NCBI GenBank assembly: GCA_947172415.1
Contig: OX359196.1
Location: 6,635,901 to 6,699,900, forward strand
DNA length: 64,000 nucleotides
Direction: 5' to 3'
Source: Chondrosia reniformis
Lineage: Eukaryota; Porifera; Demospongiae; Chondrillida; Chondrillidae
The notes below the pieces were generated by a model. The model was not told the origin of the DNA and made no database searches. It saw only the letters and a program-made list of their open reading frames with translations. Below are positions 5,023 to 45,186 of this stretch, piece after piece. Position 1 is the stretch's first letter, and every line of letters begins with the position of its first letter. The translations under genes were made by a program, and so were the position numbers.

Positions 5023-8000
5023 TCATTCTGTATGCGGTTTGAAGGTGGATGTAGGTGCAAAGATGAAGTCATGATAAAACACTGCCCAGCTCCATATCAC
5101 TCCAAAGCTACAGGAGACTGATGTGAGGAGGAGGGGGAGAAAGGGATAGTGAGTGCCGCTGTCCAGGAGGGGGTGGAGCAAGCAGCAGTAGACTTGAGTG
5201 AAACATAGAAGAGCTAAATATGACCTCTCAAATGCAGTCAAGAAGGACAATATCCCTCCACCATATTCTTTAGGAGGTCTACACACATATGTATAGTAGA
5301 AACATATCAGCTATATTACCATTACTATTATATTACATTATATTTATTATTATTTATATCATTAAACTCACTTCAATATGATAAACAACCCAATTAATGT
5401 GACAAGGCTATAGCAGACAAACATCACAGTTTTGATCAACAATTCTACATTGAAACCAAGAAAAAGTAGCAGCTATATACACCTGTCAACTGATATGGCT
5501 CAAAGGATAACTATCTAGCTATAAGTACCTGCAGGTTGGAAAAGAAGAGGAAACAGTCCGATGTGTCCAGCAAATGTGACCACAGTAAAGCAGCGTGCCC
5601 ACACCTTCCTCTCCACAGCCAGCAAGCTACATAAACACAGTATGGTCACCGGGGTGTCATGTGACATGGCTACTCACCACAGTGGGATGTCATGTGACAT
5701 GGCTACTCACCACAGTGGGATGTCATGTGACATGGCTACTCACCACAGTGGGATGTCATGTGACATGGCTACTCACCACAGTGACATGGCTACTCACCAC
5801 AGTGGGGTGTCATGTGACATGGCTACTCACCACAGTGGGATGTCATGTGACATGGCTACTCACCACAGTGGGATGTCATGTGACATGGCTACTCACCACA
5901 GTGGGATGTCATGTGACATGGCTACTCACCACAGTGGGATGTCATGTGACATGGCTACTCACCACAGTGGGATGTCATGTGACATGGCTACTCACCACAG
6001 TGGGATGTCATGTGACATGGCTACTCACCACAGTGGGATGTCATGTGACATGGCTACTCACCACAGTGGGATGTCATGTGACATGGCTACTCACCACAGT
6101 GGGATGTCATGTGACATGGCTACTCACCACAGTGGGATGTCATGTGACATGGCTACTCACCACAGTGGGATGTCATGTGACATGGCTACTCACCACAGTG
6201 GGATGTCATGTGACATGGCTACTCACCACAGTGGGGTGTCATGTGACATGGCTACTCACCACAGTGGGATGTCATGTGACATGGCTACTCACCACAGTGG
6301 GGTGTCATGTGACATGGCTACTCACCACAGTGGGGTGTCATGTGACATGGCTACTCACCACAGTGGGGTGTCATGTGACATGGCTACTCACCACAGTGGG
6401 ATGTCATGTGACATGGCTACTCACCACAGTGGGATGTCATGTGACATGGCTACTCACCACAGTGGGATGGTGACCATCATGATGGCTTTCTCATGAACAT
6501 GCCAGCCAAACAAGAAGGAAGCAAATCCACACAACACAAGGCACCTCAGAAAATCCCTTGGGGGGCTGGGACTGGTCCACAACCTCACCAGACAAGGCTG
6601 CATTGTACCAAACGTAGATAAACATTTGCACATAGCTAAATGTAACAGAAGTAATTCAATCAAGTGTAAGAGTGAAAGACAACACAGAAACAGACTTATT
6701 ATTATAAGACATGGAACCACAGACATATGACTTCTGATTGCCAGACCCACCAAAATGGCTACCAATGTGAGAAGTATGGTGCACCAGGGGGGGATAGAGG
6801 GCAACACCTGATGCTCTATCTCCCCAACCAGCCCTGATGTCATACCACCAGCAGGTGAGACGGACCACAATCTAAACTTCTTGCCTACACGAGAGAGGAG
6901 AAGGAAGAAAGGGTAGATAATAAAATGTAAAAGACAGTTGGTCTGAAACTGAATCCTCATCCAAAGCTCTATTTTCTTAAGTAATGGTCTAGGAAAACAG
7001 TCAATTTTAAGTATATTCCTCAGCCTCATGGTGATGTTAACCATGTCTTTAGGAGAATGGTGTTTTAGATAATTCAATTGCTTACATAGACTCACATGAC
7101 CTAATGTAGTGAGTAGTCATGTCACATGACCCAATGTAGTGAGTAGTCATGTCACATGACCCAATGTAGTGAGTAGTCATGTCACATGACCCAATGTAGT
7201 GAGTAGTCATGTCACATGACCCAATGTAGTGAGTAGCTATGTCACATGACCCAATGTAGTGAGTAGCCATGTCACATGACCCAATGTAGTGAGTAGCCAT
7301 GTCACATGACCCAATGTAGTGAGTAGCCATGTCACATGACCCAATGTAGTGAGTAGTCATGTCACATGACCCAATGTAGTGAGTAGTCATGTCACATGAC
7401 CCAATGTAGTGAGTAGTCATGTCACATGACCCAATGTAGTGAGTAGCCATGTCACATGACCATGTAATTAATAACTTAGCTCTCATACAAACTACACACA
7501 TATTTATGTCCCTTACAATTCCATATTAGTTGAATCTCTGCCTGTAGTGCAAGAGCTTGTTGCCAGTTGCTCTCCTACCTACCTAATATGGAGGCCATCT
7601 TGTCTGCTACGTTATACAGGGCCCAGAAGTTGGCTGCCCAGTAGGCGTGGCAGAGCCCACGCTTGAATGGAAACAGTCGGGAGAGGACCTGGCCAAGCTG
7701 TCCCTATGAATACAATTAAATTGGCATGTGGTGCACAATCATGGCTGCCTTCAGCTGAAGGGGTTCCAACATGTGGTCTGCCTGCTGGAGACCCACTTAC
7801 CATTGCTATGAATGGTCCAAATGACATCACAAATACAAAGATTACTAATATTCCAAGTTTCAAAAATTTAAATATGGAAAACGTCTTCAATGAAACACCA
7901 TGTCTCCCTGAATATTGAGCAGAAAGAGACTTCAAACTCAATGTTTAGGTATATCTTATATGCATACCTTCAGAAAAGCAGAAGTTCTTCAACAAGAAGA

Positions 8001-9352
8001 CAAAGTAAGCCGGAGCCACATATAGGAAGAGATGCTTGAGGTTGAGGAGACATGCAAACCAGAAAGCACCTTCCAAGTAACGTTCCTGTGGGGGGAGGGG
8101 GGAGGGATTGATGAATCAAGTCATTTATGTATATACACTTGTATAATTATGTACACGGTAAGCTATCAGTGTTCAGAATAAGGTATGTGCTCCACTACTC
8201 ACTTGGTATATTCTAACAACAGAGAGGAGCAGGATTCCGAATAACATCCCATTGTACTGAAAGTGAATATCTGCCATGGAATATTAAGGAGCATATATTG
8301 TGGGAGAGACACACCCAGGGGAGGGACACACCCAGGGGAGGGACACACCCAGGGGAGGGACACACCCAGGGGAGGGACACACCCAGGGGAGGAGGGACAC
8401 ACCCAGGGGAGGAGGGACACACCCAGGGGAGGAGGGACACACCCAGGGGAGGAGGGACACACCCAGGGGAGGAGGGACACACCTAGGGGAGGGACACACC
8501 CAGGGGAGGGACACACCCAGGGGAGGGACACACCCAGGGGGGAGGGACACACCCAGGGGAGGGACACACCCAGGGGAGGGACACACCTGGTGTAAGAGAT
8601 TAATGAGTCACCAGTCCCACTACTGTTGGATACGATCCACAATAAATAATCCATAATTCATCAACAGGAGGATCCCCAGCAATACTGTATACTTGTCCTG
8701 ATTGACCTTCTTCCTTAGCTGAACACAATATCTATGAAAGAGTTGCTATGGTTACATAGTTATTAATTGAGGACTGCTTAGATTGTGCACATCAAACACT
8801 TGGCTGTGAGGGGCTGAGAATAGCTAATTGGTGAGCTAGAAGTGTCTCCAGGTATTTGAAATACACAGTAGATTAATGTGTTACAATAAGTACAGTGCGA
8901 TAGCATTACTAAGAGTGCATACAAGTCACTCACTGTTGTACGGCATACAGGAGAACCAGGTCTGTGGCCATTACACTGAATCGCTGAAAGAGAATGCAGC
9001 TCCAGGAAGAATAGTACAAGTTATTCAATTTGACTATTTCGCTGTCCACTACGACAGCGAGTTTGGACAAGAGCCATTCAAACCATGCAAAAAATGGGGG
9101 ATAATCCAAAGTCCACTCAGAAGTGTCCTAATATGAGCCACATCACACATGTACTGGTTGGTATATTGCTACATCTATCATTAGGGGGGGGGGGATTTAG
9201 TCGCAGTTTCTGCAGAGTAGCTCTATGGTATATACATCCATGAAGATTTCTTAGACTTATCCATGTTTAACTCGATTGTATGATTCATTACTCTTTGTAC
9301 AGTGCAATGTAACTAGGCCTATAGTGTGCGTCCAGCACATGATGCACTCAGC

Positions 9353-9386
<34 letters not shown>

Positions 9387-9699: not shown

Positions 9700-9912
9700 T
9701 TTTAGGGGCTGGCCTAGATTGTCTTTTAAAACATTATTAGAGAAGTGTGCTTTTATTTTAGTGTATTGGGTCGGCCTCAGAATCAAATTAAATGTACATT
9801 CAATAATACGAATATACATTCACTTGAAAATTAAAAGCATAGAAATAAAGAAATGCATATAATATATATAATCTTTACTCTATGTAATAGATCAACATGT
9901 TTTGCTTTTAAG

Positions 9913-14040: not shown

Positions 14041-14045
14041 AAAGT

Positions 14046-18390: not shown

Positions 18391-21300
18391 TTACCTATGT
18401 CTGTGGAAGAGCTTCTTACATGCGTCAGATGGGACACCGACATGCCTCGGGTTGTTGAGATGCTTATTGTTCACAGTAAGAGAAGGGTCAATAGAAGGTA
18501 CAGAAGGGGTCTTGAAGCCATCATGGTATGCACTACCATTTGGCACACTGTGTCTTAATGAAGATTTTTTGTCACTTTTATCAAAAGCTGTCAATGTAGT
18601 CTCTAGTATTTGTCTATCCATGATTAATAACTGTTTCTTCATTTTCTCTCTCCTTTCTACCATGTAAAGAAGATTGCGTGCTTTCTCTAAATCATGTCTC
18701 ATTGACAGAAGTTTCTGAAAATTTTGTCTCTTTTGAGGCAAGTCCTACAAAATCACAGCAGGGCATTTACACAGTTAAACCTCCACATGTCACAAATGTA
18801 CATGTAATCATCACATGACTTACATGTGACTGCTGAACCAGCTCCAGTCTTAAACTATCAACAGATATAGCTGCCACAAGTGGGCGATTCTGGTTTGCCT
18901 GCAGTTACAATGACAGGTGCATTACATGTATCCAAGGTAGCAAGATATATTTGAACACTGTCTCACTCAGTAATAGTGAAATAGCATGGCTATTAACCTT
19001 TCGTTTTAACTTCCAGTAATTATACACCACAGAAGCAAGTTTTGGATTCAATTTCAAGTCTTCTTGCAAGTCTTTGGGTGATGCATGTTCATGGAAATGT
19101 TCCTCTAAAGTGTGAATTCTATAGCCAACACAAGGACAGATATAGGGAGGTGAAAATGGAGGGCTCTGATTGGCTCACTTTTCTGAAAGCCTGAGATCTT
19201 TCTTTGGTGAAGGTGTTCGGATTACCTTGCGAAGCGCTGAATGCTTTGGACAATAGGACTAAAAGAAATCAGTGATACAATGAATGATGTTAAAATAGGC
19301 AACTACATACATACATACGTACATAGCTGCATTCTATAAGTTAAGCTCACTAAAACAGATATGAACATTACCTCATGAATCACTTTAGTGCCATCCGGGG
19401 AGGTCTTCATTTCCAGCCCATGGTTGAATCCACATGTCACATGATAGGCCACAGTACATGAGGCACACTAATTGAAAATAGTAGTATTGTTCTACTCACA
19501 TAAATTAGATAAGTCAGCAGATTAACAGAAATAATTAATCAAGAAATTCCTGTAATTTCACAAAATAATTTATAATAATAATTTGTTTATCAGCCCAATT
19601 ATAGAGACATTGCTACACTTATAAAATGAAGATGACAAACGGTGGCACATTTCCACAGAGTGTCTATGAATACGTACGTAGCACTGAATGCAAGCTCCTT
19701 CCTTCTTCCGGCACAAACTACACAGTAAGCTCCACCTACGGGCCTACATACAGTACGCAACACAATCACAGATACGTCTGTACATACATTACGCAACACA
19801 ATCACAGATACGTCTGTACATACATTACGCAACACAATCACAGATACGTCTGTACATACATTACGCAACACAATCACAGATACATATGTACATACATTAC
19901 GCAACACAATCACAGATACGTATGTACATACATTACGCAACACAATCACAGATACGTCTGTACATACATTACGCAACACAATCACAGATACGTCTGTACA
20001 TACATTTGTCTAGAAAATGTATATTAGTGTAATACACGATAGATTGCAAATGTTGTACAACTCACTGGAACCTGATTAATAATTATATTCTTCATTCTTT
20101 CTGGTACACCAAACCGAACTTCAGGGATCCACAGAGCACAGCTAATATGTGCCCATCCACCTCCACCACTACACACATACACATACACAAGAGGCAATGT
20201 GTGGACAGCTAATATGTGCCCATCCACCTCCACCACTACACACATACACATACACACAAGAGGCAATGTGTGGACAGCTAATATGTGCCCATCCACCTCC
20301 ACCACTACACACATACACACAAGAGGCAATGTGTGGACAGGTGAGCAGAGAGAAGAGACAAGAACCAAATAACTGATAAATGATACAGTGAAAAGTGTGA
20401 AGTTTCAGCTTGGCGACCCACTCACTTCAGCTTCTTCAGTGTACCTTTAGACAGCGAACAGAGGACACACTTGGGACTGCCTTCCTTGGCCTTACAAATA
20501 TCACAGAGCCAGGGTCCCTCGGGAACCTTTTCAATTCCATAGCATGCCTACAAGTAAATAATATTCATAGCTGTGGCACTCCCACAACTACGCCCCACTC
20601 CATCACACCCATCACGTACACACCCCACTCCATCACACCCATCACGTACACGCCCCACTCCATCACACCCATCACGTACACGCCCCACTCCATCACACCC
20701 ATCACGTACACGCCCCACTCCATCACACCCATCACGTACACGCCCCACTCCATCACACCCATCACGTACACATCTCACTCCATCACGTACACATCTCACT
20801 CCATCACACCTACCTGGTGAACGCAAATGTTACAGCCGTCACAAAATACAATCTCATTTGTATCTTCACTTTCATACTGCAGAAAGAGAATATATTGTGT
20901 CTCTCATTTCACACATCACAGCTCCAGTAGTAGTGCATGCTGCTACAGAGTATCCATACCAACCTCTCTACACACGTCGCATCCTCTCAACTCATCCATC
21001 TCCATCTTCAAATCATCTCTAGTTGTCATTGCATAAGCCAAATTCTGCTGGCACTAAAGATACAACACTGACACATATAAATATTTTCTTCAACAATGAA
21101 AACTACACGCATGTTTGAGTTCTATTGTTACTTTGATCTCTAATGCTGCAATGGCTTGTCGCAATATCACTTCAGTTAGTACTTGACCTCCAGATAATGC
21201 TAAACATAGCAGAGAAAGGATAACTCTCTTAGCAAGTAACGTAGCTTGAAGATGTGACATTGCACAACTCACAGGTGTACTTTCTCTTCTCATGGAAGGT

Positions 21301-23680
21301 CTCCAGCCAAGCGAGGTCCAACTCATCCAAGTCATACTGAGGCACATGGTTGTGTCCAGATTCGTCTGGTATCATACCTGGGGGCCTTTTCAATGGAGAA
21401 GGCAGTACTAACACACACATTGTATATCAAACATTACTACCTCTACAGCCAGAAATGCATTTGCCAGCCACGGAATACATGTAAATACAAGTACGTAGAC
21501 ATTGCAGAACATGCACCAGGACACTGAACAGTTCAAGAGATTGGCTAATTACGTAGCTTACATCACAAAGTCTTCTCTTTTGAATAAATCCTCTCCACAG
21601 TCACTACAGTGATAAGTAGAGCTTGAAAGTTTGAATTACATGTATGTCTGATAATCAAACCACAACCAGACAAATGTACCTAACGTTGTTGGAGGCCAGT
21701 GCAGTTGGATTCACACACACCTGCGGAACATGAACGACACTAGTATCACTTCAATAGGAACAGTAACTAGCTACCAAACTTCAACATTGGGTCAACATGC
21801 TTTGTGGAAGTGGTAGCTATATATATATATATAAAGCATGCTCAGGTGGGTGTGGCAGCATGATCAGGTGGGTGTGGTGGCATGCTCAGGTGGGTGTGGT
21901 GGCATGCTCAGGTGGGTGCGGTGGCATGCTCAGGTGGGTGTGGTGGCATGCTCAGGTGGGTGTGGCAGCATGCTCAGGTGGGTGTGGTTACCTGAACCCC
22001 TTTCTCCCATTCAGTTCTCCAATGGTCCTTGATGTTCAAGTAAGACCCTTGCTCAAGATGGTGAGTGTCAGGTAACTTCATAGCACTGATGAAGTCTGCC
22101 CTAAAGAGCTGTTTGAGGAAGGAGAAATTTGATAATCATGTAAAGCAAGCACAAAGACAATTTGTTATGAACTGAATTCACATATGTACGTACATACTGA
22201 GATTGTAAGTAACAATGATTTACATATACGTATATACGTATACATATACTTAAATTAATACAGATCATATGTGCATCAGTGTTAGATTATCTTTAGTTTA
22301 CGCAAGTGCATTCTGCAAACATATTTGACACCCTTAAACAGACTGGACTGCATTTGACCAAAACATTATTGTTTACAATTACCATAAACCATTAACACAG
22401 CTCTTTGAACAAAAATACAGAGGTGGATAACCCTCTCATTAATGGCACATATATAGTAATACACTAAGTATAGCCTCTTTTGAAAACTTAAAACTACTGA
22501 GGAATATACACATGTAACAGAACAACCTCTCCTATTAAAAATATACATTTTCATTAAAGCAACTAGGAAAAGCCACAGTCGAATCTAATTGAAAATGGTA
22601 AGAGAAGATTCCTATTTTAAATGCCCTACACAGGGCAGCTGCCACGAATACAAGGTGTAAAGCTTCCTACAACCACACTCATTAAAATGTAATGATTTTG
22701 ACCTGAAAATACCTTTTGAGGTTAGCATAAAGGATTATTCTAATAGGAAAGTCATTTAAATCAATATAAAAGTAATTCCATATAAAATATGTACAACAGA
22801 TACTGTCACATGGGATAGGAGTTAGTAGTTAGTTAGATCAGGGGCTCTTGTTGAAAATACCACAATGGGGGAAAATGTAGTAAATTTGAGGGGTCAGTGT
22901 AGTTCAATATTTGTCTGCTATTAAAACTTGGCAATTTCATTTTCTTCAAGAGGGAGGGGGATGATTTTAAGAGGAGGCAAATGCCTAAAGGAAACACTGG
23001 CTATGGAGTTCAGTTCTGATTGGCTGCCATATTGACCACTACATACCAGCTACACACTTAGGGCATGTACATATATGTGCACACAAGACTACAATACTTT
23101 GGCAAGTGATAATGTGATTAACATATCTCATTACAACAGATACTGCCTCACCCTAGCTCGTTAACTGCCCAATACTGCTTCAACTGGCTTAATTGCATGA
23201 AAGAAGGTATAACTATATGCTTTGTATGTATGCACGCATAGAAATCTCTCAAAGAGAAGGTAATACATTGGAATGAGGAAAGACAGGGAATAATGCCTAC
23301 AAGGTTTCAAACTTGGAGGTTGTAGCTGAAGTCTCCTCTAGACCCCAGCCATCCCATAATATATACCTATATCACAAAATATGTGACATCCTGACATGGC
23401 ACAATTACTCATTCAAATGGATGTCACTCTTAAAGTAGCTCTACTAGCAAGATTGTCTCAACACTAAATCTCATTACGTATGAGGAGCTAGCCGACCTTA
23501 ATTACTGCTAACAGTTCATAAGTCGCTCTATAATGGAAATAGCGGATGGTTCGCAATAGTGACTAATACACCATTCCTCGTGAAAAGGCTACATCGCTAT
23601 GGCGTTACCTCCGAAAGCAGTAAGGAGCCTATTGGACAATACAGATACACATAACTCACCTCCTGATGCTGTGAAGTCAT
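18391..23680 (-). CDS. JADE-family PHD-finger protein, HBO1 acetyltransferase scaffold
   Basis: JADE proteins are chromatin-binding scaffolds of the HBO1 histone acetyltransferase complex. Exon 1 (23660-23680, MTSQHQE) joins in phase to exon 2 (21992-22108), which starts LFRADFISAMKLPDTH and ends WRTEWEKGVQ. An EPL1-like segment follows (YDLDELDLAWLETFHEKR, about 21290-21390). Next come PHD1 (DTNEIVFCDGCNICVHQ, then ACYGIEKVPEGPWLCDICK) and the extended PHD2 (GGGWAHISCALWIPEV from 20168, RRWSLLCSLCRKKEGACIQC from 19743, TVAYHVTCGFNHGLEMKT near 19430, SYCPKHSALRK near 19260). Zinc-binding Cys/His spacing is intact. The end has YNYWKLKRK and the helix RHDLEKARNLLYMVERREKM. A minisatellite touches a splice site of four internal exons. 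Exon borders between 21270 and 21660 are uncertain, as is which vertebrate JADE is closest. Confidence 0.92.
19744..20008 (-). repeat. 36-bp minisatellite ending on a JADE 3' splice site
   Basis: About seven copies of a 36-bp unit, on the sense strand GATTGTGTTGCGTAATGTAT plus GTACAGACGTATCTGT. The last copy is altered to GTACTGTATGTAG and supplies the acceptor of the JADE exon starting at 19743. Confidence 0.93.
20148..20345 (-). repeat. 67-69 bp repeat (three copies) spanning a JADE 3' splice site and exon start
   Basis: Three copies, each with a TGTGTATGTGTGTAG acceptor followed by 31 bp of the exon that begins at 20168 (TGGTGGAGGTGGATGGGCAC and on to AGCTGT). After that the true copy continues into the exon, and the other two return to CCACACATTGCCTCTTG. 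The exon beginning is therefore present three times. Confidence 0.92.
20585..20813 (-). repeat. 30-bp minisatellite starting at a JADE 5' splice site
   Basis: About seven copies of a 30-bp unit (plus strand CCATCACACCCATCACGTAC then ACGCCCCACT). It begins directly at the donor of the PHD1 exon: CACCAG, then GTAGGTGTGATGGAG, which already matches the unit. Confidence 0.92.
21838..21991 (-). repeat. 22-24 bp minisatellite starting at a JADE 5' splice site
   Basis: About seven copies of TGGCATGCTCAGGTGGGTGT (plus strand; some with CAGCATG). On the sense strand the exon end GTTCAG is followed by GTAACCACACCCACCTGAG, so the first unit includes the donor. Confidence 0.92.
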
Positions 23681-32005: not shown

Positions 32006-35000
32006 GTATGTGTGTATGTGTGAGTAAGTTAATGAATACGTGTATGTGTGAACAGGAATTTAAAACATTCATAGCAAGATAAACAGGTGAAAATAGAATA
32101 GCTAGATCACATCTGTCCTTACAAATACATTACTCACTACCTCCTACTTCTGAAACAAAACAGCATTTACTAGCAGACCAGTAATGAATAACAAGTCAAG
32201 TTACATACCAATGGCTTCCTCGTAGGCAAAGATTACTTCTTTTCCTTCCTTTGCCAGCTGAACTGTTCTGTTTCCCATCCACTTGAACCCCGTTAGAGTC
32301 TCTTCATGATGCAATCCCTCCTCCTTGGCCATGGCACCGAGCATGTTGGAGGACACAGTGCTATTGAGCAAGGCATACTTGGAGCCTGGGAGGGCAGGAA
32401 TTGTGAAAAGATTGAAAATCAAACTATCATCACATTTAAAAATTAGCCAAACACTATTAATCCCAACACTTAAGCACACCTTCCATCTTTTCTCCCTTGG
32501 CTCTGAGTCTCCTTCTCTTACTCTCAATGGCCCACCATCCCAGCAGCACACCAATCTCATTGCCATTAAACACCCTCCACGTCCCGTCCTCTCTCCTCTC
32601 TGCAATGGCCAAACGGTCCGCATCAGGGTCATTGGCCAGAATGACAGAGCTTCCATTCCTCTCAGCAGTTGCCATCGACAGGTTCTAAGAGAAAAAGAGG
32701 GTCTGTTTCACTCAAAGTATGTTGTCAAGTTGTGTAAGCTCAGCTACACATCAAAAGCCATGACATACCACAGTGGCACATAATCAAAGGTGATACCTAT
32801 ACAGCAGAGCCATTGAAGGGTGCAAAGTGCATTAGAAGGCACTATAGCATACATCCTCTCTGAATGAGAAGCCATAGTAAGACTGAAGCATTTTGTCTAA
32901 TTAAGCAAGGAATACATTACAGGCTCACCAATGCACTCTTCCCCTCCTCAGGGTTGGGGAAACTGACAGTGGGAAAGTCAGGGTCCGGCTCCACCTACAC
33001 CAACAAAAAGAACCAGCTGGAAATGGTCAAAATCACCAAAGGGTGCCACGCTAGCTACTGCACGCATCACTTGATCTTGTACATTCTCTACAAGTTAACT
33101 ACACGTTGAAGTGTTGGAGCAACTTGGGCCTTCTTACTTGTTCAAGAGTTGGTACATACTCTGGCAGACTAAAGATTGCAAAAGCTTGCTTAACAAAGGC
33201 AGCACCTACTCCGTGCATGGCAGTGTAAGTGAACTTCAGTGATGAGACAGCATTTCTTTCTCTAAAACAATCAAAATATTTGAATAATTTGACAAAAAAG
33301 TTCTGTCTGATACGATAATTCATGACCTCATTTAATGATTCAATACTATCCAACCCTATTCTATCACAAGTAAACCTTTCATTATTTTTACACCTTCACT
33401 TTCATATTTTACAGCCACTAAAAAGTGGAATAGTTTCAGATTTACAAATTTGTACTCACATAGCCATGATTAAATGGGTTTTCCTAAATAGATAATTTTT
33501 TAGGAAAATAGCCAACCATATCTATAGGAAATTATTCCTGCAACAGTTAAATTATTTAGTTTCTTCACTGTAGAAGGGGGTCCCCCCTTTAGCGCAAAAA
33601 CAATGTCCAGCTATCAACAACAGCTACAGCACTGCACAGTTAGGTAGGTAGATACCGGTTTAAGCTGTACTTTCCAAGCTCTGTCATGTAGTCCAAATAC
33701 ACCTGTTCATAAGGGTCAGCTACTAGTGTGGAGGAGTGGATAGCATCAGTGTCCCAGGCCCCTGGCCAAGGGTCTAGCTGCCTGAGGATGTTGGTGGCTA
33801 TTCCCTTGTCAATTGGAGGGATTATCTAATGAAATAGCAGTTGAACAGGTTCACTGAACATGTACACTAAACGAGAGATTACTAAATAAGGTATTAGTCA
33901 CATGAAAACATGCCCCTCCCACAGGATGTAGCACATGTCTCTAATGACAGGAAGTCTGACTATTGTAACCAGATGAAAAGTGTAAAACAGCAAAGGACTC
34001 AAATGGATTCAAAACAACTGCCTCTCTCCTTCCTAGTGACGAGGAAAACAGTAGTAATACACTTCACATTGTAGTAGCTGACCTGTGCTCCGTTGTTCCA
34101 GTAGACCTTGTAACCGTTATCCTGTTTGGGGTTGTGTGAGGCGGTAATCATCACTCCTGCAGCACAGCCATACTTGTTCACAGCAAAGGGCTAGAGCACC
34201 GAGAGGTAAGAAGATCATTAAAAGGTTAATATACTGCTTGCTTTAGCATACATATGGACATTACAACCTTTTAATACATTTTCAACATGTAAGAAATAAT
34301 AATAATGATAATAAACTAAAACACAAGTGTTATTATCGCACTTTTAGGGAATTACATATTATGTGAAGGGACATATGCAATTAATAAGGTAATTATAGAT
34401 GTGTGCACATAGCATGCCTATGATGCAATTTTCAGTACTTGTACATTATGGACAAAGGTAGCCTAGCAACAGATCTCATTTTAATTAAAGAAGTTCCATT
34501 TGGAAGAAGCCTTAAAAGTTATCATTATAGCAGGCCTCAAATACCACACACCACCTCAACCAGAGGTGATGGATGCATTACATTACATTCTAAATATGTA
34601 CACCATGTACCTACATGCTTCTCACAAAGGACTGAATTATATTAACAGGAACTTACCACAAATGGAGTAGGAGTTATATGCGAGAAAAGATACACCTTAA
34701 TTCCTTTTGAAATAAATGTATTGGTAACACGGTCAGCAAACCTACAAAAATAATAGTTATATATATTGTTGACATTGATTAATTATTATTCTCTGCAGTT
34801 AGGCCACATGAGACTACATCTACCCAAATGTCACACCCACCTCATCCGACACATCCACCTTGTCACACCATCCGACACATCCACCTTGTCACACCATCCG
34901 ACACATCCACCTTGTCACACCATCCAACACACCCACCTCATCCGACACATCCACCTTGTCACACCATCCAACACACCCACCTCATCCGACACATCCACCT

Positions 35001-36072
35001 TGTCACACCATCCAACCACCCACCTCATCCCCCTAACTCATCCGACACACCCACCTCATCCCCCTAACTCATCCAACACACCCACCTCCTGCTATTGTAT
35101 CTTGCATCAAACCCAACTGTTATACCTCTCTCCTTTACATCAGGGAACTGCTCAATCAAGTAAGTACACAGACCCTACATACAGATAGCAATCACACAGA
35201 GGTAGTATATACGTAGAGGTGCATTTGAGTGCAGAGGGTATGACATCATGTTTACATTGGCTGCACTACATAAGCAAGTAGTTAATCGAAAGTCTGTTCA
35301 CCAAATCACAAATTATGATGATACCCATCAGAAGTTAAGTACATCTTACCTGAGTGCTCTGAATGATGGTCAGGTCATTCATCCTATTGAACCCCGCCCC
35401 CATGGGCGCCCTCAGGCCTACATAACAGCAATACAGTACATGAGCATGGATGGTTTACACAACCCACTTTCATGTCACTCATTACAGCTGACACAAGGAT
35501 CAAGCTGTCAGCAGAGCAGGCAAAGCTGTTTACATCTCCAACCACTCCAGGAAAGCAATTTATTTGATGCATAATTATTTATTTAACGCAAGACATGCTG
35601 CACCACGTGTCTGTTAGTCAAGCATATAGAAAGTATATACCGACACGAAGCGATAGCGCAGAGAAGACCTAATTGTTAATTAAAGGATCCTTCAGAACCC
35701 TCATAACTGCTACTTTCTCGTACGAAGAACCACTGGCAAATTAGCCTAAGGTCAGGCGGACTGGAGGTCATCTGGTGGATAGCGCAGACACCATTTCAAC
35801 CACCAATCTCCCTACCTGCGGTGCCGAATTTCATCCTGGAACAGAGTCTGTTGCGCAGCTCGACGATATTGCTTGTGTTGACCAAGCTCTCTATCTCCTC
35901 TCTCGTGTCTTCCCACTACATACACACGGAGAATGATACTTAAGAATTGACAAATCAACTTTAGACTACACACGTAATCAGTCACTTTACATAAACACAC
36001 TTTGTCCAATCTTCTCCATTCCGCGATTTTCTTTTCCAAATCTGGGTCGTTGACTATAGATAAACTTGCCAT
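26687..36072 (-). CDS. PGM2: Phosphoglucomutase-2 / phosphopentomutase
   Basis: Alpha-D-phosphohexomutase family enzyme that interconverts sugar 1- and 6-phosphates (PGM2: pentose and glucose phosphates; PGM2L1: glucose 1,6-bisphosphate synthesis). The start is ATG 36072 ([20 protein letters not shown]). Exons follow family order: [13 protein letters not shown] (35086 side), [16 protein letters not shown] and ITPTPFV (about 34670-34740), the catalytic phosphoserine loop [20 protein letters not shown] (about 34100-34160), [16 protein letters not shown], the metal loop [16 protein letters not shown] (about 32600), [14 protein letters not shown], and [17 protein letters not shown] followed by FAYEEAIG. 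The 3' exons encode the [15 protein letters not shown] block and the phosphate-binding domain, ending SPPSSP at 26687. A 4.4-kb intron (27785-32210) hosts another gene on the opposite strand. Confidence 0.94.
28466..31795 (+). CDS. Nested Ig/FN3 single-pass receptor with a tyrosine-rich tail
   Basis: A complete gene inside a PGM2 intron, on the other strand. Ten exons read in frame: 28466-28490, 28548-28577, 28638-28967, 29069-29389, 29501-29809, 29875-30180, 30290-30373, 30818-31102, 31161-31196 and 31263-31795. All junctions are phase 1. Order: signal peptide ([18 protein letters not shown]); an Ig domain ([22 protein letters not shown]); a second Ig-like module (exon 4); an FN3-like module (exon 5); an FN3 (exon 6); a short Thr/Pro-rich mucin-like piece (exon 7); an FN3 very like the exon 6 one (exon 8); a transmembrane helix ([20 protein letters not shown]); and a cytosolic tail. 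The tail has proline motifs ([20 protein letters not shown]) and tyrosines in YDYA, YEDM, YEYM and YDAVYV contexts. I infer a cell-surface adhesion or signalling receptor; the ligand is unknown. Confidence 0.85.
30531..30727. mobile_element. Foldback (MITE-like) element in an intron of the nested receptor
   Basis: Two arms of about 90 bp run TGAATACTGTAGAT...GTGTATTA and its reverse complement. They meet at a short centre (TAATCTAA) near 30633. The arms differ at few positions plus a 13-bp insertion in the left arm, so insertion looks recent. There is no coding content. Confidence 0.85.
31852..32030. repeat. (TG)n microsatellite
   Basis: TG dinucleotide runs interrupted by TATGCG and TTTAAGTATGCAAG. 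The longest uninterrupted run is about 75 bp (31924-32002). It lies just after the receptor stop codon, still within the PGM2 intron. Cys/Val and Thr/His frames across it are artefacts. Confidence 0.95.
34828..35085 (-). repeat. Minisatellite spanning a PGM2 5' splice site
   Basis: About nine copies of variable 26-37 bp units made from GATGAGGTGGGTGTGTTGG, TGTGACAAGGTGGATGTGTC and GAGTTAGGGG (sense strand). The exon ending at 35086 reads AATAGCAGGAG and its donor is GTGGGTGTGTTGG, the same GAG plus GTGGGTGTG that recurs in the array. Confidence 0.9.
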
Positions 36073-36411: not shown

Positions 36412-38639
36412 TCACTGAGAGATATTTGCTATACACACAATGTAAACAAGAGAAGGTGTAACTATACAATGCAGTCTGGCAGAGTTCAAACTGTACCAAG
36501 TACTTTCCCAGAATGCTTAATGCAAACTGGTACATTACTCTCTGCCATAAAGTGACCACAAATATCCACATTACACTGGTACATTGAGGTATACTTACAC
36601 TGGTCCCATGGATGTCTGTAGCTATTCCAAGTTGTTGTTGCTGCTGTAAGAGCTGCAACTGTAGTATCTGCTGCAGTGTCTCTATACTGGCCTTAGATGG
36701 GCTGGCTTGGGAGGCTTGTTGGAAGGGGTGGGCCTGGGGCTGGGGCTGATGTTGGGCCTGGGCCTGGGGCTGGGGCTGATGTTGGTGTTGGGCCTGGGGC
36801 TGATGTTGTTGGGCCTGGGGCTGGGGCTGATGTTGCTGTTGTTGGGCCAATTGGAGCAGTGCCTGTAACTGTTCTGGAGTTATGACAGATTGTTGTTCAT
36901 CCTGTGTGGGAAGGAGAAGACTCGGGGTGAATAACACAAGATTTCCAGAATAATAGAAATCCATTGCATAGCATCTAGTCTGTCCCCCTTGGGTAACCTT
37001 TCTGTACCTTTTTAGCCGTCTTTTGAATTTCATCTCTGGGAACAATGTCGATGAGAAAGTCAAACATGTCATATTTGGTAACTGCAATGGCAATGTCTGA
37101 TCTCTACAATAACAGATAGTCAATATTGTCATATTCACTAACCTACAATTCGGTGTATAAATACACTGTAAATACAACTCATTATGAACATACCATAATT
37201 GAGATGCAAATTAACATATGCAGCCATTTTTGTAGTATAATATATTAGAACATAATTGTATAAATGTATATTAATGTCATTCTTGATTTAAGCCTCAATT
37301 TAGTTTCCTCACCAAAGTACATGTATCTAGTTACTTCCAGCTAATTAATACTAATTCTTATTGACATACAGAGTAGACATCTCGTTATGAGACATGCAAC
37401 AAATATACTGCACCTGGATGGTCCTTCTCTTAGCTTCTTCAGTTTGGATCCAAGCTCTGAGAGCAAGCTCCTTGATGAATATACTTACAGCCTTTGAGAG
37501 CAGCACTGGTACTTCAGCGCTAATCATCTTTATGGGGAGCATGAGAGGTTAAAGTTAGAGAATTGATTTATCCAATTTTGACATGTTGTAGACTCACCTT
37601 AACATCATCGTCCATCCTCATAATCTTCTTTATTCTTGCTAAAGGCATTTCTGGATTCTTAAATATGTCCTAAGCAGCAATTAGGTAAGTGTTAACTGCA
37701 TTAACATGCTATTTAGCTAAGAATTAATAGGCACATTTAGATGTGCAATATTCTAGCTAATTATTAGCAGGAAAATGTATGTACTAATGCTTTTGAAGCC
37801 TAATAAATGGCCAATTTCAAGTATGTGGAAGTTAATATGTCATGTAACACAATATGCACCAGGGCTGCATAGCCCTCTGGCCCCAAGTTCTGCATGCATC
37901 CCTGCGCACATATGCTGTGCTACATAAGCCATGCTGTATTTGTGTGACTAACTGAAGTTGGAGTTATCTTTCTAATTTCATTTCCTTGGTCGTACCAGAA
38001 TGTGGCCAATTTTGACATTGACTCTGACATGCCAGGAGCAGTTAGACTGGGCTGTTCATTAGTAGAGTCGGTCTACAAAGTCAGATATAGACATTTCATT
38101 TATAAGTAATCACGTGCAATCAAATACTTGCATTCATTTGACCCACTCCACTAGGGCACCGCGGGATAAAGGTTTGGGAGAGCGAGGATTTAACTGAATG
38201 GAGGCTCTCCCCAGAACCAACGGAGGATTCTGAAGACTGGGCAAACGAAGGCATGCGATAGTCTTTCCCGGGGCTATCAAATACCAGAGAAACCACCCTA
38301 GGTTTTGTTCGCATCATTGGATAGGTCCTTTCAAAACTCCCCGCTGGTCTCACACTTGTCTCTACCACCTCTTCTTGGGCCAAGTACATTCTCTCTCGTA
38401 AGAATGCTTGCGTAACTCACAGACCCCCCGGCAGTCTCCAAGCTCCCCGCCTGTTGCTGCAGCTGCTGATCACCACTCACACCACACGATAGATGGCTTG
38501 GTGCGGCCAGATCGGAGGAACTGGAGGAAACGTACGTTACCTCAGAACCACGATTATCATGACCAGACAAAAGAAGATTGCCAATATTATTAGTCGAGGT
38601 CAAAATAGACGAAGTGGTCGAAATGGAGGGTTCCGCCAT
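36412..38639 (-). CDS. NFYC: Nuclear transcription factor Y subunit gamma
   Basis: NF-YC pairs with NF-YB through a histone fold and, with NF-YA, binds CCAAT boxes. Start is ATG 38639 ([18 protein letters not shown]), a long Ser-rich N-terminus. The core reads [15 protein letters not shown] (about 37990), [18 protein letters not shown] (about 37620), then [20 protein letters not shown] and [18 protein letters not shown] (about 37410-37530), then [20 protein letters not shown] followed by RDE (about 37030-37090). These match NF-YC nearly residue for residue. The C-terminal activation region is Gln-rich, with a PQPQAQQHQ repeat at 36690-36880. The last donor is at 36599. I place the stop at the TGA just after an acceptor at 36415, which is uncertain. 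The intron between exons 1 and 2 appears to be only about 52 bp. Confidence 0.9.
36690..36885 (-). repeat. Coding Gln/Pro repeat in NFYC
   Basis: Imperfect 6-18 bp repeats in the frame of the NFYC exon ([20 protein letters not shown]). The Ala- and Gly-rich reading on the other strand is a shadow. Confidence 0.85.
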
Positions 38640-38870
38640 TTTCTATAGAGTATAACCCCTGTAAAATATTATATTATTAATGGGCATTCAATTAGCGTGT
38701 GGCCAGCTACAGCAGTGGCAACATATACGTATACCTTTTATGATAATTTGCAATCAATCACTTCAAAATAGTAAATACAAATATACAAATGCTACCAGGA
38801 TGTATGTAGAATTACCATCAAATACAAAAAGAGTCATCTCAAGATATATAAGTTGTAAATCTGCATATTT

Positions 38871-41800
38871 CTAATTGTAGTTCTTTGCCATAATGGTATG
38901 CATTTCCAGTTTAGCAGCACCTATATCTATCCTTGTCTCCCGTCTGAACTCCAACATATTCTTCACAAGTTCAGTCAATCTTTCAGGTAGTTTCTCTGCT
39001 TGCATAATGTCCTTCCCTCGAGTGTGTGTAAGTCTAGGCAACTCTGAGCTCACATACCCACACTGATCAATCTCGCCAGTGGTGAAGGGGCTGATGTGGC
39101 CGGCCATCTCATAGGCAAGGATGCCAGCTGCCCACACTGAGTGCTTGTCATAGTGGAGGAGCCTGTTTGGTCCCGGCCTAGCATTGAGAATCTCTGGGCT
39201 CTTGTGGTTCAAATTTCCAGGTATCTGCATGCCTGTAGGGAGCAAGGGACCTACTAACTCTCATGTCTACCAAGTGTGTGTGACTCAGGTAGTTGACCTT
39301 GGATGTAGGGCATTGTCATCTGCTTCTCCAACAGCAGGGCCACCCCAAAATCAGCAACTCTCAGAGTATTTCCATCCAGCAGGAGGTTGCCCATCTTCAG
39401 GTCTCGATGCACCACGTTGTGTGAGTGGAGGAACTCCAGAGCACAGAGCAGCTGAAGGAACCACTGGCATACCTGTTTACGCTACAGAGAGATGAGTGGA
39501 AATGGTATACAACAAGTAAACCTCAAACTATCTGCATATGTGAGGCCTATCAATTTCACTGTTTACGGTTTCCACTCACAGGTATTCCCCTTGGAAAAAA
39601 TCCTTGTACTGCAGCTTCGAGTGAGTTTGGATAGAAATCCATGACAAGAAAGAGCGAGATGGATCTCACTCCTGGGAGAGCTTTCAGAGCGGGATGGATG
39701 TCTGGTTCAAAACGATCATAGAAAAAAGCATGCAGCTTTATAATGTTATCATGGGAAGGTAGTTTACAGAGAATGTCATACTCGTTCTTGAACATTGCAC
39801 GAGCCTAAGAAGAGGAATAAATATTCATAACATTAGCAAAATAGAACCGTTTAAAATTCAAGGAATGAAAACATAGTTTATCCATTAATAACAGTGCTCT
39901 AAAAAAGGAAAATACTGAATTGTTAGCTGAAAATTTAACAGAATCATTCAAAGATTCAATTAGAGCCTCATAATAGTCAAATTGTACAACAGAGCTATTC
40001 ACTTAGAGAGCTATTGTCCTTACTCTAGTAACAGTCTTGGCTGCATGATAGTTTATGAGACCTTTCAAGGCAAATATCTTGTTTGGATCAGTTAACCTGG
40101 TCCTCTGACACTTCACCTTCATAACAACACCATCGTCTCCCTGACTCACTAACTCCAACTTTATTATACAAGTGAATAATACGTACATGAAGCACGAGTC
40201 CAAGGAGAGAGACAAGTAGAGACTTACCACTTTGTAGTCCTCCAGAGAAGTGCTGTACAACAGTCTCATGTCAAATAGCTCATTGGCCAATCTCATTCTC
40301 TCCATTTCCAAACGCTTTGTACGATCCTTTAGGTCAGCATCCATACCCCCAGAGGGAGACTACGTACAAACACATCAAATCCACATTGCTACACTCTTGT
40401 ACATACAGGTGTGATGTCTCAATACAAATTAACAGTTCTGAGTCACCTACTCTAAACAGCTGCTCTCCAGATGGACTCTTAAGTGGACCAGATCTAGCTT
40501 GAGGTGTTCCACTAGTGTTAGCAGCTCGACGTTGGGCCAGGTCCAAATCCATTTTCAGCTTGTTTGCTTGATCCTTCATTTCCTTAATTTTGTCATCCTT
40601 GTCTCTCAATTCCCTCCTCAACTGCTCATTTTCATTTTTGGTCTTTTCGTACTTGATTTGGAAGTCCTCCAGTCCTCCTCCCCCTCCCTGGTAGCTTGGG
40701 ATGCTGGCTGAATCAGATGCATAGTTCCTCAAAGCTCTCTCCATAGCAGCCCGGCTCTCAAAAGCCATAGGATCAAGGTCGGCGTCTCTAACTAGTTGCT
40801 TGAGCTCACCAAATGCAATCTTTGAGAGATTAATGTTGCGAATACGCTTTGCCAGAGAAGACTCGCTTGGTGACATTGGTAGGTTGAACTCGCTAGATTG
40901 GCTACTTCCTGTAGAGTTACTGGTATGGGAGCGATTGGAGGGCCTCAGCTCCGGTACCCTCTTGTAAAGCCTGTCCAGGTAGTCAGAGCGATCCAGTAAC
41001 CCAACGACACTGATTTCCATGTCTTGCATGATACTCTTAATCTCCTTCACTGGTGCAGACTCAAGATCCATCGCTTTCAGCTTGTTAATGCCCCTGGCTC
41101 TTTTTTCCTTTAGTTCATTCTCCAGCCTCTTCTGTTCTTCTTCTTGTCTCTCCTCTTCCTCCCTCTTCCTTTTCTGTTCATTTTCTCTCCTTCTCTTCTC
41201 CTCTTCCTCATGCCTGATTCTCTCTTGGGAGAGTTGCTGCTCTTTCCGTCTCACTTCTTCCCTTTCCCGTTTCAGCTTTTCTTCGTACTCCCGTTTCAGT
41301 TTCTCTTCTCGTTCTTTGGCTGCCAGTGCTCCCAACACAAAGCCACTTGCCATCTCCTCTGCCATTTTCTCAGCAATTTTTCTCTTTATCTTCTGCTGGA
41401 CCCATTCCTCCATGGTACGTCTGTAACGGCCACTGTTGAATGCATCTACAATACTCTGAAATCCTTCAAACTTTTGAATTGAGAGCTTTCCGTCCTCCAA
41501 GAAGTTGAGGTTTAGAATGGTAGGTGAATATTCTATGCCTCCAAGATCATTTCTCAACTGAAAGTACAATAGCCAAAAAGGAGTCAAGTGCATGGAGCAA
41601 CAGACTCAATGATAAATCACCTAATGTAACTAAGTGATTAGTGACCGTACATAGGATTGGCCTAGATATTCACTTAACTATGCCTACATTAGCTACGGTT
41701 CGAAGTCACTCACAATATGTATCCCTGCTCTACTATTCGAGGTGCTGTGTTAATTATGCAACAGATCGACAGGTGCGTACCTCTCTATGCGTGAAGCTAG

Positions 41801-42065
41801 TAGAAATGGGGACTCGAATGAAGGGAACTCCCTTGTCCTCGAAGAGACGAGCCATCTTGTTGAAATGAGGTCTGATCTCGCGAGACCTCTCTTGCTTGCC
41901 GTCAGAGATCTCCATACTGGCAACCTCATGTTCGTCTTGGAGGAGTTTGTACAATCTCTTCCAAGCGGAGACATTCTCTGGAAGAACAAACAAGTTGTCC
42001 GGTGCTTGAGCCAGCGCCGCGTCCCGTGCTAGATCCGCCAAGAGGTGAGCAAACAGAAATTCCAT
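38871..42065 (-). CDS. Protein kinase with PINK1-like catalytic domain, coiled coil and thioredoxin-like N-terminus
   Basis: Exons 41781-42065, 40451-41567, 40228-40359 and several to 38871 join in phase. Residues 1-140 look like a thioredoxin fold: [20 protein letters not shown], then [20 protein letters not shown]. The CxxC position is replaced by non-cysteine residues. A highly charged coiled coil follows ([16 protein letters not shown]... [19 protein letters not shown]), then two SAP-like helical segments ([40 protein letters not shown]) and a second coiled coil. The kinase domain has [11 protein letters not shown] (Lys), [40 protein letters not shown] (catalytic Asp), ADFGVALL (DFG), and [20 protein letters not shown] followed by [12 protein letters not shown]. 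The last block, and the LFLVMxxYPxxL block, are typical of PINK1. The glycine loop is weak. There is no mitochondrial leader. Function is unknown. Confidence 0.75.
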
Positions 42066-42211
42066 GACTTCTTCTTTGTTAGTAAACTAGCTCTACGCCC
42101 ACGTATCTGCGGGGGACTTCCAAGAAATACTCAGTAAACTACAAGGTGTCATGTGATAAATCCGTATATCGCAATGAATACAGTTAAAATTTTTACAAAA
42201 GGCAATACACA

Positions 42212-43232
42212 TTAAGTGTCTTCGCCAGCAATACCACCTGTCCGTGTACCTTCTGGGAAAGCACTCTTGAAGTCATCTACACGTTTCTACAGGAAAATGG
42301 CAGCACTTGATAGAAGAGAAATCAATACTCAAAAACAAAGGTTCTGCCATCTAAAAGGATTTACACGAGGTCATACAACCGAAATGAATCATGGGATTGA
42401 AGTACACACAACGTGGATATAATGAAATAGTAATTACATGTCAATTTATGGGAGCAATCAAATGGAACTTACTTGAAAAATCTCAGTCATATGATCACAC
42501 ATCAGCTGAAGGTCCTCTAGACCCTTCCTAAGCACATCTAAAGCAGATGCTCCTATACACCAATTAAATATTACTGCACTGATTTAACCTGCATACACGC
42601 TATTATGTAGTAGTCCCGCATAGCCAGGCCCTTTTCCCTAATGGCTTCCTAACTGGTTAGCCAGACCCTTTTCCCTAATGACTTCCTAACTGGCTAGCCA
42701 GACCCTTTTCCCTAATGGCTTCCTAACTGGCTAGCCAGACCCTTTTTCCTAATGACTGGTTAGGAATCCACTAGGGAAAAGGGTCTGGCTATGCAGGACT
42801 ACTACATGTACCATAGTAAAGTATATGTACTGTGATCAGATGTAACCTTGTACAACATCGCAAAGTAATCACAGAAGTAATACACTATACCATTGGTCTG
42901 TATTCGCAGGCTAATCTTCTTCTCTGATGGATGCGGGACACTATAGCCACAGAAGGTCACAGACGGACTACAAAGAGTATTACATAAATTTACTTATTAA
43001 CCAATTCCTATTACCGCCTCTTCCTACTTTTTAGTGAGGACGTGTCTCAGCGCGTTCCCCAATGTATGGCTCTCTCCGGTCAGCACAAAAGTCATACACG
43101 TTTCTCCCTCGCACCCTTCTACCGGAAGCTACAAATAATGTAAATTACCTGTATGTAAAGAACACACAATACTGCAGAGCCTTCATGTAACTATAGCTAT
43201 AGCTTTACCACTTGCAATCTTCCCGTAGCCAT
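42212..43232 (-). CDS. POLR1D: RPAC2 / POLR1D, shared subunit of RNA polymerases I and III
   Basis: Five exons join in phase: 43209-43232, 43028-43128, 42891-42967, 42473-42552 and 42212-42286, giving 118 residues. The alpha-like dimerisation signature is complete: [20 protein letters not shown] followed by [20 protein letters not shown]. These match the human FVLHEEDHTLGNSLR and [20 protein letters not shown] blocks. The helix [19 protein letters not shown] and the tail [12 protein letters not shown] complete it. The protein pairs with RPAC1 in the assembly core of Pol I and Pol III. A 200-bp TIR element sits in the fourth intron. Its start codon is 71 bp from that of the divergent VAMP7-like gene. 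Confidence 0.95.
42608..42808. mobile_element. TIR element (MITE-like) with internal tandem repeat, in a POLR1D intron
   Basis: Inverted ends: GTAGTAGTCCCGCATAGCCA at the left, and at the right TGGCTATGCAGGACTACTAC (one or two mismatches). Inside are about four copies of a 36-bp unit (TGGCTAGCCAGACCCTTTTC plus CCTAATGGCTTCCTAA), and a reversed partial copy (GGGAAAAGGGTCTGGC) before the right end. It can fold into a long hairpin. Confidence 0.85.
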
Positions 43233-43303
43233 CTCTATCAAATAAAGGGGAATCCCCCGTAGCCATTCCTAGCTAATTAAGGGGAATCCCGAAATTTAAT
43301 AAA
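43233..43303. promoter_or_regulatory. 71-bp bidirectional promoter region of POLR1D and the VAMP7-like gene
   Basis: It contains one copy and a half of a 34-bp tandem duplication that includes the POLR1D start region. CGTAGCCAT (ATGGCTACG on the sense strand) occurs at both 43225-43233 and 43258-43266. GGGGAATCCC occurs at 43247 and 43281 and fits the kappaB consensus GGGRNWYYCC. The transcription start sites must lie in or near this space, possibly within the first introns. Confidence 0.6.
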
Positions 43304-45186
43304 ATGTCTTCTGCAGTTAGCTATCGCTCAGATCTTAGTGATGATAGCGAAGATGACGAGTCCAAGATTGTATTCGCTGCTGTGACCTCTTCGACAACAA
43401 TCCTGGCAAGGTTCTCCCCTTATGATGGGAACTTTGACGAAATTGTTGAACAGATTTTGCAAAGAACTTCAATGAAGGAAGGCAAAGTAACCTTTATGGC
43501 TAACAGTGATCCGGAGTAAGCTGTTCCAAGGAGCGGATAAAAACTCGCATAACTAGTTTATTATTCCTAATCTTAATCTAATGTACCAATAGGGACACAT
43601 TTCAGGTTTCTTTTAGAAAAAAAACAGAGGCATATAGTACCTTCTTCCTGTATAGCCACATCATGTGACCGTCTTCCTGTGTAGCCACATCATGTGACCT
43701 TCTTCCTGTGTAGCCACATCATGTGACCTTCTTCCTGTATAGCCACATCATGTGACCTTCTTCCTGTGTAGCCACATCATGTGACTGTCTTCCTGTGTAG
43801 CCACATCATGTGACCTTCTTCCTGTGTAGCCACATCATGTGACCTTCTTCCTGTGTAGCCACATCATGTGACCTTCTTCCTGTGTAGCCACATCATGTGA
43901 CCTTCTTCCTGTGTAGCCACATGTATCATGTACTGCAGGAAGGGCACGAGGAAGAGGCACTTTTGTTTATTTGCATTACTGATGATGTAAGATGATGACA
44001 TATTTCAGTTTATTATAGTAAATATTTTATGGGACCATCTTTGAATTTTTAAGGATTTTGCAAGACCCACTGCCTTTCTGTTTCTAGAAGACATACGATT
44101 AAGGTATATATGATATATGGTTAAGGTATATATGATATATGGTTAAGGTATATAAAATATATGGTTAAGGTATGTAAATATATATATCCATCTATACTGT
44201 TTGCATTCAATATGTGTATATACTATCTGTACAACCTTACTGAATGATTAATCAAGTTAACTTTTACTCTCTTATATTAGATTCCATGACTTACCCAAGG
44301 CAAATGTGAACTTAACAATGCCATATTCACTTAACAGCAGATTTAGCTTTGTTATGGAGGAATATATGGTTAGTATACAATGACCCTTAGATAAGGTAAA
44401 TATTAGCCATATACTAACACAGTGATATCTTAGTTATGAGTATGTAGTCTACTTTTCTAAAATCTTTTTCTATAATTTTTAAAGCTTAGAAGAAAGATTC
44501 TACACCTGCACATGTGTCTCTCTCTCAACTTACCTACGTATAAGAGTCCTCTCCACAAATAGTGAAGATATGTAGCTTTAGTATCTGATTTCTTGTATCT
44601 GTCATTCTATATTCCTCAGCAAAAATATTCAAAGATCAGTGATCTGAATTTGATTGCGTCAGTTGAGCGAGTTCAACACCAAATTAATGAAATGGAACAA
44701 ATTGGGATCAGAAACATTGGTTAGGGCGAGAATTTCTGTTGAGATTGTGTAGTATAGAATTGTTTCTTATTAATACTAGATCGTAGCCAATTTGCCATTT
44801 CAGAAGTTGATACCGAATCAATCACCGAACGAGTGAGTGGGGCTATACAACTTACTTCATATTTGCTGTAATCTCTAATGAGTAATTGTATAATGATTCA
44901 TCGTTTATATTTCTTAATTATATATGTGTGTTTGTTGGTATTCACTGCTTTGGAATGTTATTTACATTTTGTGCAGCATTCTCTCTTGGGAAATGTATCA
45001 GTACAAGTACAGGGAGGAGTAACTCCTAATTCACGTCCTATATGGAAGAAACCACTGTGCATATTTACTATTATTTTTATTGTGGTGGTATTGTTAGTGG
45101 TGAGCTATACCAGACGCACACAGATAGACCTTCCTTTGAAGCAGTTTGTAACAGTGTTGCATAATAAGATGAAGACTATAAGCTAG
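43304..45186 (+). CDS. VAMP7-like longin-domain SNARE protein
   Basis: Seven exons join in phase: 43304-43515, 43917-43986, 44054-44103, 44281-44368, 44620-44719, 44804-44832 and 44977-45186, giving 252 residues. After an acidic N-terminal extension the longin domain reads IVFAAVTSSTTILARFSPYD, NFDEIVEQILQR, LLFICITDDDFARPTAFLFL and LTMPYSLNSRFSFVMEEYM. It aligns with human VAMP7 along its length. The SNARE region starts normally (ERVQHQINEMEQIGIRNIG), but its second half (EVDTESITERHSLLGNVSVQ) has lost the regular heptads and is several residues short. A transmembrane helix follows (IFTIIFIVVVLLVVSY), then 30 residues after it, longer than VAMP7. I infer a late endosome/lysosome or exocytic SNARE relative; fusion activity is doubtful. 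Confidence 0.82.
43645..43930 (+). repeat. 29-bp minisatellite carrying the VAMP7-like exon 2 acceptor in every unit
   Basis: About ten copies of TCTTCCTGTGTAGCCACATC plus ATGTGACCT. The last copy reads CTTCCTGTGTAG then CCACATGTATCATG, and is the acceptor and start of exon 2 (43917). Confidence 0.92.
44095..44185 (+). repeat. 22-bp repeat spanning the VAMP7-like exon 3 donor
   Basis: About four copies of GGTTAAGGTATATATGATAT. The first junction is the real exon end (CGATTAAG) followed by GTATATATGATATATGG; the copies then recur with slight changes. Confidence 0.9.

Follow-up and report, generated by a model that had tools for sequence, protein, structure and literature searches.

In the window analysed here, a gene-dense stretch of 64,000 nucleotides from the genome of the sponge Chondrosia reniformis (G000:C8:6635901-6699900; the assembly comprises 117 Mb in 15 contigs), eight minisatellite arrays either overlap coding exons at their splice junctions or end within 6 bp of such a junction, in four genes, ALG8, JADE, PGM2 and VAMP7. 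These are probably ordinary minisatellites, produced by local tandem duplication within introns of very small size, where splicing would still use the exon-side copy, and their position would require no special attraction of repeats to junctions. A bias toward splice junctions, as claimed in the initial annotation, is borne out in part at most, and very short introns can explain most of it.

The proposed course of events is the following. A local tandem duplication inside a very short intron would yield a minisatellite. As the unit (17-69 bp) is large compared with the intron (72-368 bp with the extra copies removed), roughly half of such duplications would touch or span a splice site. A spanning duplication would be tolerated, because the exon-side copy retains an intact splice site beside the exon, and the other copies would become part of the intron.

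Arrays at the junctions of coding exons

Arrays were detected with Tandem Repeats Finder (TRF) at a score of at least 80 and a period of at least 10, clusters under either limit being dropped. This gives 17 minisatellite clusters in the window, rather than the "about a dozen" counted initially; eight are located at junctions, and three lie deeper in introns with checked borders (two in ALG8, one in a POLR1D-like gene). The sample outside the window comprised 50 arrays (43 on C1, 6 on C11 and 1 on L031), after a 40-kb block of C5 with 65 clusters had been excluded as satellite before counting. The names POLR1D, NF-YC, ARL6 and FERM/ERM, as used here, are presumptive, being given from the look of the proteins and not backed by alignment or Pfam.

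The exons of ALG8, JADE, PGM2, POLR1D and VAMP7 were joined by hand, translated and checked by protein alignment, and for all eight junctions the translation of the joined exons aligns across the junction with ALG6/ALG8, JADE, sugar-mutase (PGM) or VAMP7 proteins. In JADE, whose protein scores best against that of the demosponge Geodia barretti (identity 49% over 99%, compared with 55% over 74% for Halichondria panicea), the junctions 19743, 20168 and 20814 fall within the alignment to human JADE1 (8ge0), and at 21992 the residues EWEKGVQ/VCVNP (slash, junction) are aligned with EWEVGVQVCVSP of Geodia barretti Jade-3. The PGM2 junction 35086 is inside a match to Pfam PF02878 and inside alignments to solved sugar mutases. 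Both VAMP7 junctions, 43917 and 44103, are in the VAMP7 alignment (4afi), the former a few residues past a 3-residue gap. The ALG8 junction (donor 6458, acceptor 5626) is aligned through with the solved relative 6snh, the whole match having an E-value of 8.5e-16; it is the weakest-supported of the eight, as the stretch alone gives E = 0.005.

That the borders lie elsewhere, or that the arrays are mis-assembled, is hardly credible, given that each of the eight borders is crossed by the protein alignment on which it is based and that the assembly of this size is in 15 contigs. What speaks for such an artefact is the behaviour of the ab initio gene finder, which misplaced sites inside arrays, so that unaided models are unsafe here. 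The gene finder, self-trained and run on array-collapsed sequence, was hence rejected as a source of junction distances: its raw junctions fell inside arrays in 5 of 18 cases (window and L031), 2 of 6 (C11) and 11 of the 41 listed (C1), and none of these was used in the counts. In the FERM-like paralogs on C1 the real donor, AAG/GTAAGT, is situated hundreds of bases from the site chosen; in the window the program overlooked the whole VAMP7 gene as well as the exon at JADE 19743, and it misplaced the ALG8 borders, all of which was corrected by hand.

The eight junction arrays have units of 22-69 bp in about 3-25 copies (Table 1). Both observations made initially, that eight arrays lie on or near coding-exon splice sites and that in five of them exon bases are part of the unit, held on checking; the five are those at ALG8 6458, JADE 20168, PGM2 35086, VAMP7 43917 and VAMP7 44103 (12, 31, 3, 6 and 5 exon bases, respectively). 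The arrays at JADE 19743, 20814 and 21992 only abut the junction and contain no exon bases.

In the ALG8 array we found 24 further donors whose score equals or exceeds that of the working donor, and all 24 would lead to a premature stop if used. Counting sites within 3 of the working score, the PGM2 array contains 17 donors (of which 4 equal or exceed that score), the VAMP7 acceptor array 9 acceptors (of which 7), the VAMP7 donor array 7 donors (of which 3) and the JADE 20168 array 6 extra acceptors (of which 4), and again each of the 17, 9, 7 and 6 sites would lead to a premature stop. Thus, of all sites scored in the five spanning arrays, only the exon-side copy is productive. Of the abutting arrays, that at JADE 19743 has five internal acceptors in this range and that at JADE 20814 one further donor, all weaker than the working site; the array at JADE 21992 has no further donor.

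The outer copy is presumably the one spliced in the animal, and spanning arrays are presumably tolerated by selection. In ALG8 the working donor would be the outermost copy (last exon base 6458), and in VAMP7 the working acceptor would be the last copy (exon start 43917) and the working donor the first one (44103). The suggestion, already made initially, that a duplication across a junction is tolerated as the outer copy still splices is retained as the simplest mechanism. The ALG8 array, with its 24 extra donors, provides a clean natural case for studying how the spliceosome chooses the exon-side copy.

The stops might also be taken to mean that the arrays persist because they regulate splicing, with tandem decoys adjusting intron retention or nonsense-mediated decay of the host genes. 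In the five spanning arrays, no internal site within 3 of the working score escapes a premature stop if used, and in C. elegans the CeRep25B minisatellite is over-represented near alternative splicing regions, according to the passages cited from PMC4039745. Stops are expected in noncoding extensions anyway, and frameshifts add more of them; we consider a regulatory role very improbable.

Table 1. Arrays and adjacent exons in the window. The last column gives the distance from the array edge to the junction in bp; negative values denote exon overlap. A slash marks the junction.
Feature	Coordinates	Strand	Description	Edge to junction
ALG8 array (donor 6458)	5651..6469	-	33-bp unit, about 25 copies (TRF); 12 exon bases and donor GTGAGT in array	-12
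ALG8 exon upstream (in gene) of array	6458..6597	-	alignment; Pfam Alg6_Alg8 in overlapping open reading frame	
ALG8 exon downstream of array	5531..5626	-	acceptor 5626; far end set by hand	
ALG8 second intronic array	7092..7461		30-bp unit; 121 and 207 bp from splice sites	
ALG8 third intronic array	8302..8587		17-bp unit; 31 and 46 bp from splice sites	
JADE array at acceptor 19743	19745..20006	-	36-bp unit, 7.3 copies; ends inside acceptor AG; no exon bases	+1
JADE array at acceptor 20168	20138..20340	-	69-bp unit, 3.1 copies; 31 exon bases and acceptor in unit	-31
JADE array at donor 20814	20590..20807	-	30-bp unit and 21-bp variant; ends 6 bp away; no exon bases	+6
JADE array at donor 21992	21836..21988	-	22-bp unit, 7 copies; ends 3 bp away	+3
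PGM2 composite array (donor 35086)	34843..35088	-	26/31/44-bp units; 3 exon bases; AG/GTGGGT donor copies	-3
POLR1D-like intron array	42621..42754		37-bp unit; 68 and 136 bp from splice sites	
VAMP7 acceptor array (43917)	43639..43922	+	29-bp unit, 9.8 copies; repeats polypyrimidine tract and acceptor; 6 exon bases	-6
VAMP7 donor array (44103)	44099..44185	+	22-bp unit, 3.4-3.9 copies; repeats TTAAG/GTATAT; 5 exon bases	-5

Intron geometry, donor motifs and chance

In the null model for array positions each array was collapsed to one unit and placed randomly in the same intron, a junction hit being a placement within 6 bp of the junction or across it. In the 11 introns with checked borders, which without extra copies measure 72-368 bp, the units cover 31-134 bp. 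If a unit is allowed to overlap the exon by up to 31 bp, 5.78 hits are expected against 8 of 11 observed (P = 0.13); with any exon overlap allowed, 6.66 are expected (P = 0.29). We regard these two variants as the fairest, the observed arrays reaching up to 31 bp into exons. With a cut-off of 10 bp the respective values are P = 0.21 and 0.39. Junction-spanning arrays in particular number 5, against 4.4-5.9 expected, depending on the null. Thus, the initial argument that junctions occupy a small share of the sequence, making chance unlikely, is weak, as it is the width of the unit relative to the length of the intron that decides.

Only 5 of the 50 arrays outside the window, namely those with recognisable flanking exons, entered the intron test, their borders being derived from the gene finder and presumed homologs and hence weaker than in the window set; none of the five is located at a junction. 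For all 16 introns taken together, 8 hits are observed against 7.0 (31 bp) or 8.1 (any overlap) expected. Two arrays on C11, 34750 and 25602, were excluded for ambiguous exon borders, and the former may be donor-adjacent. The intron set is small, and the window was selected because the pattern had been noticed there. One of the five outside introns, in an ARL6-like gene (L003, C1 block 6185-8066), is almost filled by a 66-copy array with a 27-bp unit, pyrimidine-rich on the sense strand; its TRF edge is 27 bp from the acceptor, with degenerate repeat-like sequence continuing to about 3 bp.

If arrays were seeded on donor sites, donor motifs should be common in tandem. We observed no enrichment of strong donor motifs in tandem over the 117 Mb. 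Three tandem copies of GTAAGT occur 900 times, against 1067 for the mirrored motif, single copies outside arrays being found 246 and 287 times, respectively, in the sampled 314 kb. Tandem pairs of AGGTRAGT occur 464 times genome-wide, against 864 for the mirror, 383 for a permuted motif and 984 for the permuted mirror; as a single motif outside arrays, AGGTRAGT is the commonest of the four (46 against 23, 30 and 13 in the same order, sampled 314 kb). These controls are imperfect, as matches are concentrated in a small number of long arrays: at C1:9605008 alone, an array with 16-bp spacing gives 25 of the mirror matches listed. When those listed matches that lie more than 2 kb apart are counted by hand as separate places, the donor pair has 6 on C1 (mirror, 10) and 14 on C1-C3 (permuted motif, 20).

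Among 44 unit families donor scores appear raised (Kolmogorov-Smirnov P = 0.012; acceptors, P = 0.42). An enrichment of donors in the units was rejected, as the mean percentile for donors, 0.37, falls within the range given by permuted and mirrored matrices (0.34 to 0.48), and P = 0.30 results from a dinucleotide shuffle; the raised scores result from base composition, the units having 46% GC against 37% in the background. The proposal that an AGGT-like core promotes slippage found no support in either the pair counts or the unit scores.

Several results weigh against ordinary duplication in short introns as the whole explanation. If exons are closed to the unit, 2.59 hits are expected against the observed 8 of 11 (P = 0.00012), and with at most 12 bp of exon overlap 4.27 (P = 0.014); with the 10-bp cut-off these values are 0.002 and 0.042, and for all 16 introns at 6 bp, 0.0009 and 0.065. 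Which null is fitting hinges on the strength of selection removing junction-spanning duplications. The three abutting arrays compare with 0.8-2.6 expected (P = 0.04 to 0.49, depending on the null). The motif test covers strong donors only, that of VAMP7 being a weak one. For the PGM2 array, weak matches (67-78%) occur at other places in the genome.

A true seeding bias, in which junctions, or selection acting there, would draw in or preserve more tandem duplications than intron geometry predicts, in this sponge and perhaps in other animals with very short introns, would account for the excess under the strict nulls in four genes. It would also agree with donors and acceptors both being affected, and with the mild excess of abutting, non-spanning arrays (3, the loosest null giving 0.8; P = 0.04). 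We nevertheless consider it unlikely: the overall excess loses significance once overlap of the observed size is allowed, the five other introns have no array at a junction, strong donors are not tandem-enriched genome-wide, and the window was picked for showing the pattern. The comparison of array edges with randomised positions, made for 11 + 5 introns, shows an excess if exons are closed and no significant one if a 31-bp overlap is allowed. Intron geometry needs to be modelled before any junction bias is claimed. If the bias were real, copies of donors and acceptors would form a standing source of cryptic sites and of changes in intron length, and arrays of the ALG8 type, with about 25 near-identical donors, would be natural tests of the choice made by the spliceosome.

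Dispersed copies and other arrays

Another source of the arrays could be mobile elements, palindromes resembling miniature inverted-repeat transposable elements (MITEs) with internal repeats, which would carry and spread arrays and come to lie in introns by chance. The POLR1D-like intron array does sit in a dispersed palindromic MITE-like element (42590-42815) that matches 39 stretches of the genome, in one orientation or the other and with its own locus among them. The two ALG8 arrays 5651-6469 and 7092-7461, about 620 bp apart, have a common core in opposite orientation, and FERM-like paralogs on C1 share a related intron array, one copy of which is partly inverted. In contrast, the junction-spanning units contain local exon bases, and dispersed copies of the unit or its carrier were not found for the ALG8 core, VAMP7 43639-43922 and JADE 20138-20340 (four of the eight arrays were searched, PGM2 being the fourth): at zero mismatch the ALG8 core is confined genome-wide to the two ALG8 arrays, with inverted orientation in the second, and the other two arrays match themselves alone. 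A mobile origin is quite improbable overall, and for these three arrays it would require that the source element was lost. Most simply, the ALG8, VAMP7 acceptor and JADE 20168 arrays would have been born in place, in line with local duplication.

The core common to the two ALG8 arrays is GTGAGTAG(C/T)CATGTCACATGAC, and it ends in the near-palindrome GTCACATGAC. In the FERM-like paralogs (L004 19113-19671, L007 43830-44419 and L019 163289-163763, C1 block) the array has a 31-bp unit and lies well inside the intron, some 64 bp ahead of the acceptor; the partly inverted one has few copies. The C1 block itself (C1:2000001-2200000, L003-L022) comprises tandem gene families, FERM-like and others, that share recurrent arrays of 15-, 23-, 31- and 33-bp units. 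The copy numbers of these arrays differ, for the main 33-mer from 7.5 to 38.5, with 3.6 copies at the edge of the block, which offers a natural series for studying how arrays grow. The excluded block C5:3000001-3040000 (L023-L026) is made up of extended tracts of a diverged 22/23-bp satellite (GGATATATTTGGCAAAAACTAT-like) running in either orientation, and may be centromeric or heterochromatic.

In the window, three further arrays lie between gene models (14055, 17519 and 43222), and two have unconfirmed borders, 52509 within a gene-finder model and 57872 between two models. The coding tandem repeat 36729-36829, rich in Q, P and H, is the sole one of the 17 arrays placed inside a (modelled) coding exon; its gene is putatively NF-YC, Pfam having given no match for the open reading frame.

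Comparison with known systems

Among the literature matches listed, from a coverage outside which most subscription journals fall, there was no report of junction-spanning minisatellites in sponges. The initial statement that such a pattern had not been described as a genome-wide feature agrees with the matches listed as far as a genome-wide feature is concerned; the structure itself already has a name, "mirage", in amphioxus (PMC3087553, PMC3902484).

Three known systems, described here from the cited passages of the respective papers, are comparable. In human segmental duplications, variable internal tandem repeats found with TRF at exon-intron boundaries can create new introns (PMC2812944). 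The means of detection and the position of the repeats are the same as here; the difference is that paralog variation and transcript evidence are available there, whereas here we deal with one genome in which no variation is seen. Intron gain by a tandem duplication crossing an intron-exon boundary, as in the AGGT model (PMC4974935), likewise involves a duplication across the boundary, but there it made a new intron; the introns here contain non-repeat sequence besides the arrays.

The closest likeness is with the amphioxus mirages, tandem repeats across exon-intron boundaries that affect both kinds of boundary, leave splicing normal and are unstable in length, and for which a role in intron gain has been proposed; they are described for Adh3, the globins BflGb6 and BflGb9 and troponin C, and PGBD5 repeats are likened to them (PMC3087553, PMC3902484). 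Here, as there, minisatellite-like copies span the boundaries of donors and acceptors with copied AG/GT signals, and the unit size is similar (10-72 bp in Adh3). The differences are that the host is a sponge, that three of the eight arrays abut only, and that the sponge arrays are known from the sequence of one assembly alone. Tandem units are present in all eight arrays, exon bases across the boundary in five, and copied splice signals in the same five; these five are, judged by their sequence, mirage-like, and JADE 19743, 20814 and 21992 fall outside that class. If the spanning arrays are tolerated through the exon-side copy, they would therefore be sponge examples of amphioxus mirages, and mirage-like minisatellites, a term used for amphioxus only in the cited passages of PMC3087553 and PMC3902484, would extend to a sponge.

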